From Phycisphaerales bacterium (GTDB taxonomy: Bacteria > Planctomycetota > Phycisphaerae > Phycisphaerales > SM1A02), in NCBI GenBank assembly GCA_009691705.1, contig SIAR01000004.1:1-64000 (forward strand): 64,000 nt of DNA, read 5' to 3'. Positions within the stretch are counted from its first letter, which is position 1, and each line of letters starts with the position of its first letter. Under the pieces are notes generated by a model. That model was not told the DNA's origin. It worked only from the letters and a program-made list of their open reading frames with translations, and made no database searches. Both the position numbers and the translations under genes were made by a program. Of this stretch, positions 3,600 through 4,786 are shown piece by piece.

Positions 3600-3752
3600 A
3601 ATCCCAATTCGGGGATATTGTGAGAGTGCGGGTGAAAGTCCGCGTCAGCCAACACGAAAGATCGGAGAAAGACCCCGATCAGTTCAGTTGACTGACCAAC
3701 CATGCCCTTTTCCCTCCCTCCGCCCCCGAGCCTTGTGCTCGGGGGTTTTTTT
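3600..3752 (+). ncRNA. Candidate small structured RNA, unidentified class
   Basis: No + strand gene precedes the strong terminator at 3723-3752, so a short transcript probably ends there. Upstream of it several helices can be drawn by eye: ATCCC/GGGAT (3601-3616), GCGGG/TCCGC around TGAAAG (3628-3643), a perfect GATCGG/CCGATC pair (about 3660-3680) and a small TCAG/CTGA hairpin. The piece GGTGAAAGTCCG slightly recalls a cobalamin riboswitch core, but the other conserved parts are missing. The 5' end is not known; an A/T-rich stretch at 3556-3600 could hold the promoter. Confidence 0.45.
3723..3752 (+). terminator. Strong intrinsic terminator without an upstream + strand gene
   Basis: CCCCCGAGC and GCTCGGGGG form a perfect 9-bp stem with a CTTGT loop, followed by seven T residues. 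The T tract is on the + strand only, so it does not serve the minus-strand GNAT gene that ends at 3790. The next + strand gene starts more than 1 kb away. Confidence 0.85.
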
Positions 3753-3789: not shown

Positions 3790-4320
3790 CTATTGCAGCG
3801 TCTTCTCCAGTACTTCGAAGTACAAGTCGTCGCGCCGGGGCAATCCAGAACGCGGTTCGCCATAGGGAAAGCTCTCGCGCGCGCCGGTGAGCGCATACCC
3901 CCGTCGGAGGTACCACGCGATGAGTGTGTCGCGCTGACCGATCACTGTCATGCGCGCAACTGCATGATGCAAGTCATCTCGGATGATGCGCTCGGCTTCG
4001 AGCAGCACCGATCGACCAACACCGCCACTCTGCAGATTCGGCCGCACACTAACCATTCCGATGTACCCCGCACTCTTGATGTCATCGATTCGCACGCACG
4101 CAATGACCTCTCCTTTGCGCAAGGCGAGCCGAATGCGAGAATTCTCGCCTTGAATCAGCCCTGAGATCTCTTGGGGATCAGTTCGCTGGCCATCGAGCAA
4201 CTCTGCTTCAGTCGTCCACCCGGCGCGACTCCCCTCTCCGCGGTATGCACTCTCTATCAGTGCGACGACCTCCACCACATCGTCCAGAACAGCATCGCGA
4301 AACGTGAGGGGATCAACCAT
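3790..4320 (-). CDS. GNAT family N-acetyltransferase
   Basis: A 176-residue Gcn5-related acetyltransferase. The N-terminal strand and helix LTFRDAVLDDVVEVVALIESAYRGE are typical, as is the acetyl-CoA pyrophosphate loop of motif A, VRPNLQSGGVGRSVLL, of the form Q-x-x-G-x-G. The C-terminal strand and helix ARMTVIGQRDTLIAWYLRRGY match motif B, with the common Y-x-R-x-G-Y ending. It moves an acetyl group from acetyl-CoA to an amine; the substrate cannot be told. The start is an ATG at 4320. It lies 42 bp after the short-repeat gene on the same strand and may be co-transcribed with it. Confidence 0.88.
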   Translation of the reverse strand: MVDPLTFRDAVLDDVVEVVALIESAYRGEGSRAGWTTEAELLDGQRTDPQEISGLIQGENSRIRLALRKGEVIACVRIDDIKSAGYIGMVSVRPNLQSGGVGRSVLLEAERIIRDDLHHAVARMTVIGQRDTLIAWYLRRGYALTGARESFPYGEPRSGLPRRDDLYFEVLEKTLQ

Positions 4321-4362: not shown

Positions 4363-4686
4363 TCACCGAGTGCCTGGTAGCGCCGTCACGAATCTAATCT
4401 TGAAGTCGGCCAATGCCGTGACCTTCTGAATCTTGAAGTCTGGAAGCGCCGTCACGATCTGCCACTTTCCTACGGAATTTGGAAGTGCCGTCACCTCTTG
4501 CACTCGCAAGTCTTCGAGTGCGGTGACGACCTCAACCTTGTAGTCCGCGAACGCCGTTACATATTGAATTTTGCCGTAGATCTTGCTGAGATCTGGCTTT
4601 GCTGGAGCAGTTGTTGCTCCACAAAACTGCATGAGTGCAACCGCGACCAAGACCATGAATGGCAATCGAGCGAGCGACTTTTGCAT
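4363..4686 (-). CDS. Small secreted protein of VTAL short repeats
   Basis: A 107-residue protein with a signal peptide (KSLARLPFMVLVAVALMQFCG, cleavage after about residue 25; the Cys could also be a lipid site). The mature part is six units of 11-13 residues with the pattern K-[IV]-x-x-VTA-[LF]-x-D-[FYL]: IQYVTAFADY, VEVVTALEDL, VQEVTALPNS, WQIVTALPDF, IQKVTALADF and IRFVTALPG. One unit has a short insert, SVGKW. Such a strand-turn repeat should make a small beta-solenoid, beta-prism or knotted fold. I recall similar repeat proteins but no confirmed function. The start codon ATG at 4686 and the signal peptide support a real gene. Confidence 0.75.
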   Translation of the reverse strand: MQKSLARLPFMVLVAVALMQFCGATTAPAKPDLSKIYGKIQYVTAFADYKVEVVTALEDLRVQEVTALPNSVGKWQIVTALPDFKIQKVTALADFKIRFVTALPGTR

Positions 4687-4786
4687 GATGCGTTCCTCTG
4701 CGGATGTGGCGAGCGTGACAGCGACTCGTCGATGGTAGCCCCCCGCCGCCGCAATCAGCGCATGCGACCGATTGAGTTACGATCGG

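Follow-up and report, generated by a model that had tools for sequence, protein, structure and literature searches.

A planctomycete six-repeat protein with a predicted signal peptide belongs to the family of the knotted Ureaplasma protein UU089.1

A contig of a Phycisphaerales bacterium (SIAR01000004.1) carries a short open reading frame whose product is built largely of one VTAL-type unit repeated in tandem. We asked whether this frame is a genuine gene, what fold such a regular chain would adopt and what it might do for its carrier. The analysis covers the 64,000-nucleotide stretch of the contig in which the frame lies, here called the window, together with relatives in bacteria and phages. 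An earlier note, made from the DNA letters, had proposed a small, secreted protein with a regular strand-turn pattern, perhaps knotted. On the whole this was a good call, and the results below support it in part.

Gene and repeat architecture

The gene is a minus-strand open reading frame of 107 amino acids, with an ATG at 4686 and the stop codon at 4363-4365. The translation of 4363-4686 is MQKSLARLPFMVLVAVALMQFCGATTAPA/KPDLSKIYGKIQYVTAFADYKVEVVTALEDLRVQEVTALPNSVGKWQIVTALPDFKIQKVTALADFKIRFVTALPGTR, where the slash marks the predicted signal cleavage site. The features are as follows.

4363-4686, minus strand: whole open reading frame, a putatively secreted member of the UU089.1/Q9PR55-like family (PHROG 6462), from sequence and profile matches
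4694-4699, minus strand: AGAGGA, probable ribosome-binding site read from the sequence, 7 bases upstream of the ATG
4600-4686, minus strand: putative Sec signal peptide MQKSLARLPFMVLVAVALMQFCGATTAPA, predicted cleavage after APA (residue 29)
4540-4572, minus strand: unit 1, KIQYVTAFADY
4507-4539, minus strand: unit 2, KVEVVTALEDL
4474-4506, minus strand: unit 3, RVQEVTALPNS
4468-4482, minus strand: central linker PNSVG, which joins units 3 and 4 and widens the spacing from 11 to 13; position kept in nearly all homologues
4435-4467, minus strand: unit 4, KWQIVTALPDF; the Trp and the next Val are invariant across the family alignment
4402-4434, minus strand: unit 5, KIQKVTALADF
4369-4401, minus strand: unit 6, KIRFVTALPGT; outside the region matched in UU089.1

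The motif VTA[LF] occurs exactly six times in the protein, as does the longer form [KR][IVW]xxVTA[LF]; shuffling the mature part 200,000 times never yielded more than two copies of the motif. The frame, the motif counts and the shuffles confirm the six-repeat protein that the earlier note had placed at 4363-4686. The unit pattern proposed there, K-[IV]-x-x-VTA-[LF]-x-D, describes six units with small exceptions: R opens unit 3, KW opens unit 4, and units 3 and 6 lack the closing D. The spacing from one anchor valine to the next is 11-11-13-11-11. The proposed expansion of one unit by SVGKW is therefore real as a longer linker, but one of just two extra residues, placed exactly midway through the six units. 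Its conservation in homologues, suggested as a check, was borne out.

Compared with three close relatives (80-82% identity over the aligned 79 columns), the gene differs at 33-37 third codon positions and at 6-12 first or second positions. Its pN/pS ratio is 0.12-0.21 against all eight relatives tested. The frame is a real gene, the codons of which are under strong purifying selection. The codon-position pattern and the pN/pS ratio rule out an off-frame artefact, and the unselected codons named beforehand as a result that would count against the repeat protein did not appear. The G+C content of the gene (0.52, versus 0.59 for the window) is in keeping with acquisition from outside, of which it is no proof. 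A strong terminator-like hairpin with a T run lies on the plus strand at 3722-3746 of the window, just past the end of the minus-strand GNAT gene at 3790-4320.

The N-terminus shows a basic n-region, a hydrophobic core and an AxA motif, a sequence pattern from which we infer a signal peptide and export of the window protein. Homologues L013, L015 and L016 have clear signal peptides. These are absent from L014, L017, L053 and L066, so export is not family-wide. The exported-type variants of the family include signal peptides, a lipoprotein-type LSGC motif and a membrane anchor. In one planctomycete copy (L018 1096-1737), the repeat domain follows a membrane anchor and a long linker that is acidic and rich in Gly and Ser.

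Relation to the knotted protein UU089.1

The single solved relative of the window protein is UU089.1/Q9PR55 (PDB 8IWA; phmmer E 1.9e-7). Our family profile matches UU089.1 with E values of 9.5e-14 and 7.1e-15 over chain residues 26-85, a stretch that takes in nearly all of the published knotted core, residues 27-83 (PMC9278004). This sequence similarity across the core defines membership, and we conclude that the window gene adds a member to a structural family already known. The knot of UU089.1 is of type 7_1, predicted first by AlphaFold and then confirmed by crystallography (PMC13352647; PMC11223836). For P73136, which is homologous to Q9PR55, the predicted knot is 5_1 rather than 7_1 (PMC9278004).

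The phage-derived family PHROG 6462 (function unknown) matches the window protein with an E value of 1.1e-23 over profile positions 30-101 of 103, and matches all 28 of the aligned family members. Pfam, NCBIfam and PADLOC hold no matching model for the family, and the scattered weak matches look like chance. The full-length protein found nothing in Pfam at E values up to 1, and the mature part gave one insignificant match. UsfY and BA_2335-like matches (E 0.1-0.3) were rejected. For PF19647 (DUF6150) of Pfam, possibly a related knot family, the model had no match in the window's own genome at E values up to 10.

Predicted structure and variants of the chain

AF2 run with 28 diverse homologues returned a confident model (pLDDT 92.6, pTM 0.79) with six strands, one per unit. 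The pLDDT of 31.9 obtained with only 10 close homologues most likely means merely that the alignment was too shallow. Disorder, the other outcome named beforehand as adverse, did not appear and is ruled out by the run with 28 homologues. The best PDB matches of the model in Foldseek are all Q9PR55 (probability 1.00, E 1.6e-5), and a structural search of BFVD found nothing significant. The fold type is well supported, and nothing was found in favor of the beta-prism that the earlier note had listed among its candidate folds.

The model does not superimpose globally on 8IWA (TM 0.36, rmsd 10 Å over 64 columns). A register shift is an unlikely cause, because the 34% identity of the match equals the value of the in-register alignment. 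The model may therefore have another topology: either it is arranged unlike the crystal structure, or this branch of the family is truly wound differently. AF2 is known to disregard topological barriers (PMC10672856).

The 15 possible ways of pairing the units were compared across the family. The pairing 1-4, 2-5, 3-6 scores best by BLOSUM (7.78) and ranks second by signature correlation, and units 1 and 4 have G-K-x-Q-x-V in common. This is suggestive of a 1-4, 2-5, 3-6 architecture, not decisive. Such a pairing would fit two parallel three-unit halves with a central linker, a possible route to a two-strand torus knot. The invariant family positions (V, D, G, W and P) look structural; no catalytic pattern was seen among them.

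Several relatives carry variations that bear on how the chain is held together. In a group with an N-terminal C-x-x-K/Q-G motif, a cysteine in the central linker is also present in all ten sequences compared (by eye), and the two cysteines likely form a disulfide. In one sister genus (L006, L103, L104 and L106), cysteines flank the repeats in four of four genomes, the first immediately ahead of strand 1 and the second immediately behind unit 6; a disulfide between these end cysteines could seal the chain into a ring. Within the window's genus, genome G009 encodes a diverged form behind a lipobox-like LSGC. The gene of G011 (L031 1228-1650) is the same gene as that of G009 (L008 1225-1752) and is otherwise near-identical, but lacks 105 bp (35 codons), in frame, between two 20-bp repeats, and thus has three units, not six. 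Unless this reflects an assembly error, the G011 gene is a natural half-length form.

Homology makes a knot in the window chain likely, with 7_1, 5_1 or none all candidates. The earlier mention of 'even a knotted fold' was apt in that the sole solved homologue is 7_1-knotted, but for this chain the knot is carried over by homology. We propose that the six strands would fall into two triplets, one from units 1-3 and one from units 4-6, joined through the longer central linker. The two halves would run parallel and wind round each other, giving a torus-type knot (5_1 or 7_1); read most simply, the two-strand torus knot of the homologue has this arrangement. Knotting would render the chain very stable. 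The misfit to 8IWA despite an in-register local match, the different knots (5_1 versus 7_1) published for homologues (PMC9278004) and the three-unit form in the window's genus leave some room for another arrangement, in which the window protein belongs to the same family but has no knot or another winding (such as that of a plain beta-solenoid or of a shallower knot) and the topology of the family is mixed. We consider this possible but unlikely: the sequence homology spans the published knotted core, and the central linker and the invariant V, D, G and W are kept.

Distribution and phage context

The gene has a patchy distribution. Within the window's genus, 7 of 19 genomes have a match, and in the window's taxonomic family the gene is present in 12 of 181 genomes and 3 of 45 genera. 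The planctomycete copies are not a single clade (p-AU 4e-6, on 79 columns and with some long branches). Close relatives beyond the window's phylum occur in Sulfurovum, where copy L015 lies among apparent housekeeping genes, and in Luteolibacter, where the gene is near a phage amidase gene. Bacterial copies sit in unrelated neighborhoods. The neighbors seen at the window gene include no phage genes, and no conserved operon partner was found; its GNAT and GT41 neighbors are not kept with it among relatives, except in genome G007, where a GT41 gene lies about 3.5 kb away.

The INPHARED phage genomes contain no match, and a first scan of IMG/VR with the window protein alone as query returned nothing. 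Many matches to the family are present on IMG/VR contigs, where the copies lie next to or within tail, baseplate or lysis genes (L065, L062, L026, L063, L066, L060 and L053); the neighboring genes encode a minor tail protein, a tail protein, a terminase, a spanin and an endolysin. In L065, the gene lies on the same strand between baseplate hub and wedge genes. In L062 and L026 it lies antisense between two baseplate hub genes, and in L063, L066 and L060 it is antisense to the neighboring late genes. A single extra, often antisense gene inside a late cluster is one hallmark of phage cargo (moron) genes; it is found in the family (L062, L026, L063, L066 and L060) and not at the window copy. A promoter and terminator of its own are a second mark of such a gene; scans for these were uninformative, and for L062 a consensus scan gave nothing above chance. 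On the Leptospira weilii plasmid NZ_CP092209.1, the family gene (L077 8001-8246) lies directly before baseplate J in a phage tail/baseplate cluster; the replicon is possibly a phage-plasmid. The family gene also occurs on a contig classed as viral (L048 5064-12270), beside DUF3841, GmrSD-type and type I restriction-modification (HsdM-like) genes, and in L014 a DUF4062 gene is close by. The family gene of Burkholderia stagnalis plas1 (L078 6001-6246) is missing from the plasmid collection's incomplete gene table.

The earlier note professed no known role for such proteins. This still largely holds, although the phage context adds evidence not available before. The exported, anchored and lipoprotein forms, together with the cargo-like position in phages, suggest a stable protein of the envelope from which the carrier profits. 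A different role for such a protein would be that of a secreted inhibitor or ligand in microbial competition, a protease-resistant binding scaffold unrelated to phage exclusion. It would agree with an exported, presumably very stable and patchily distributed protein and with the proximity to restriction-modification genes in L048 and to the DUF4062 gene in L014; we think it rather improbable, given that neither an immunity partner nor an export cluster was seen at the window and no neighbor is conserved among relatives. Least likely, and improbable in our view, is that the phage copies encode a small virion part (baseplate or tail tip) of which the bacterial copies are domesticated remnants, as the same-strand placement between hub and wedge genes in L065 and the position among tail genes on the Leptospira plasmid, also on the same strand, would allow, but against which stand the antisense orientation in L062, L026, L063, L066 and L060, the unrelated neighborhoods of the bacterial copies and the rarity of signal peptides among virion proteins.

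Discussion

Taken as a whole, the window gene probably encodes an exported, all-beta protein of about 78 residues of the UU089.1/Q9PR55 family that is torus-knotted, spread in part by phages and active in masking the envelope. The gene is non-core and would be spread among bacteria partly via temperate phages as a single cargo gene in late regions. Its product, resistant to proteases and located in the periplasm or at the cell surface, would bind and mask an envelope component to the benefit of the carrier. Superinfection exclusion is the leading candidate for its role, although a tentative one.

No protein knot confirmed by experiment is more complex than 7_1. Being a torus knot, it contradicts the idea that every protein knot arises when a twisted loop is threaded once (PMC10672856). 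The publications considered here describe the solved case, a lone Ureaplasma protein, and one predicted homologue. Here we describe a wide family (planctomycetes, Campylobacterota, Verrucomicrobia, Leptospira, Burkholderia and many phages) for which neither Pfam nor NCBIfam has a model, and that includes exported, membrane-anchored, lipoprotein-type, cysteine-paired and half-length variants. Carriage as phage cargo is a first functional lead for such knots and a hint at their purpose. It is conceivable, though a long shot, that nature offers in this family a graded series showing how complex knots arose and what they are used for: three-unit forms would give entangled dimers, the six-unit chain would be their fused, knotted product, the end-cysteine pair would yield a covalently sealed knot, and phages would spread exported knots as envelope shields against other phages.

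Comparison with known systems

The closest known system is UU089.1/Q9PR55 of Ureaplasma (8IWA, 8IWB, 8IWC, 8JRM and 8W68; 7_1 knot), which is built of repeated VxSFPDxKVQ-type units. The window protein is about 34% identical to it in register (22 of 64, counted by hand). Both have a longer central unit, the central linker of UU089.1 being two residues longer than that of the window protein, and their local structures are alike by Foldseek. In contrast, nothing in UU089.1 matches unit 6, its N-terminus differs, and 8IWA and the AF2 model share no global superposition. P73136, published as a probable homologue of Q9PR55 with a predicted 5_1 knot (PMC9278004), resembles the window protein in length (112 versus 107 amino acids). 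PHROG 6462 covers the window protein over 72 of 79 residues; unlike the phage members, the window gene lies on a chromosome, and no phage genes were seen adjoining it. For function alone, the comparison is with Sie-type envelope proteins, among them Ltp from phages of Streptococcus thermophilus (PMC3952083), which share with the proposed role the character of a small surface protein made from a single prophage gene.
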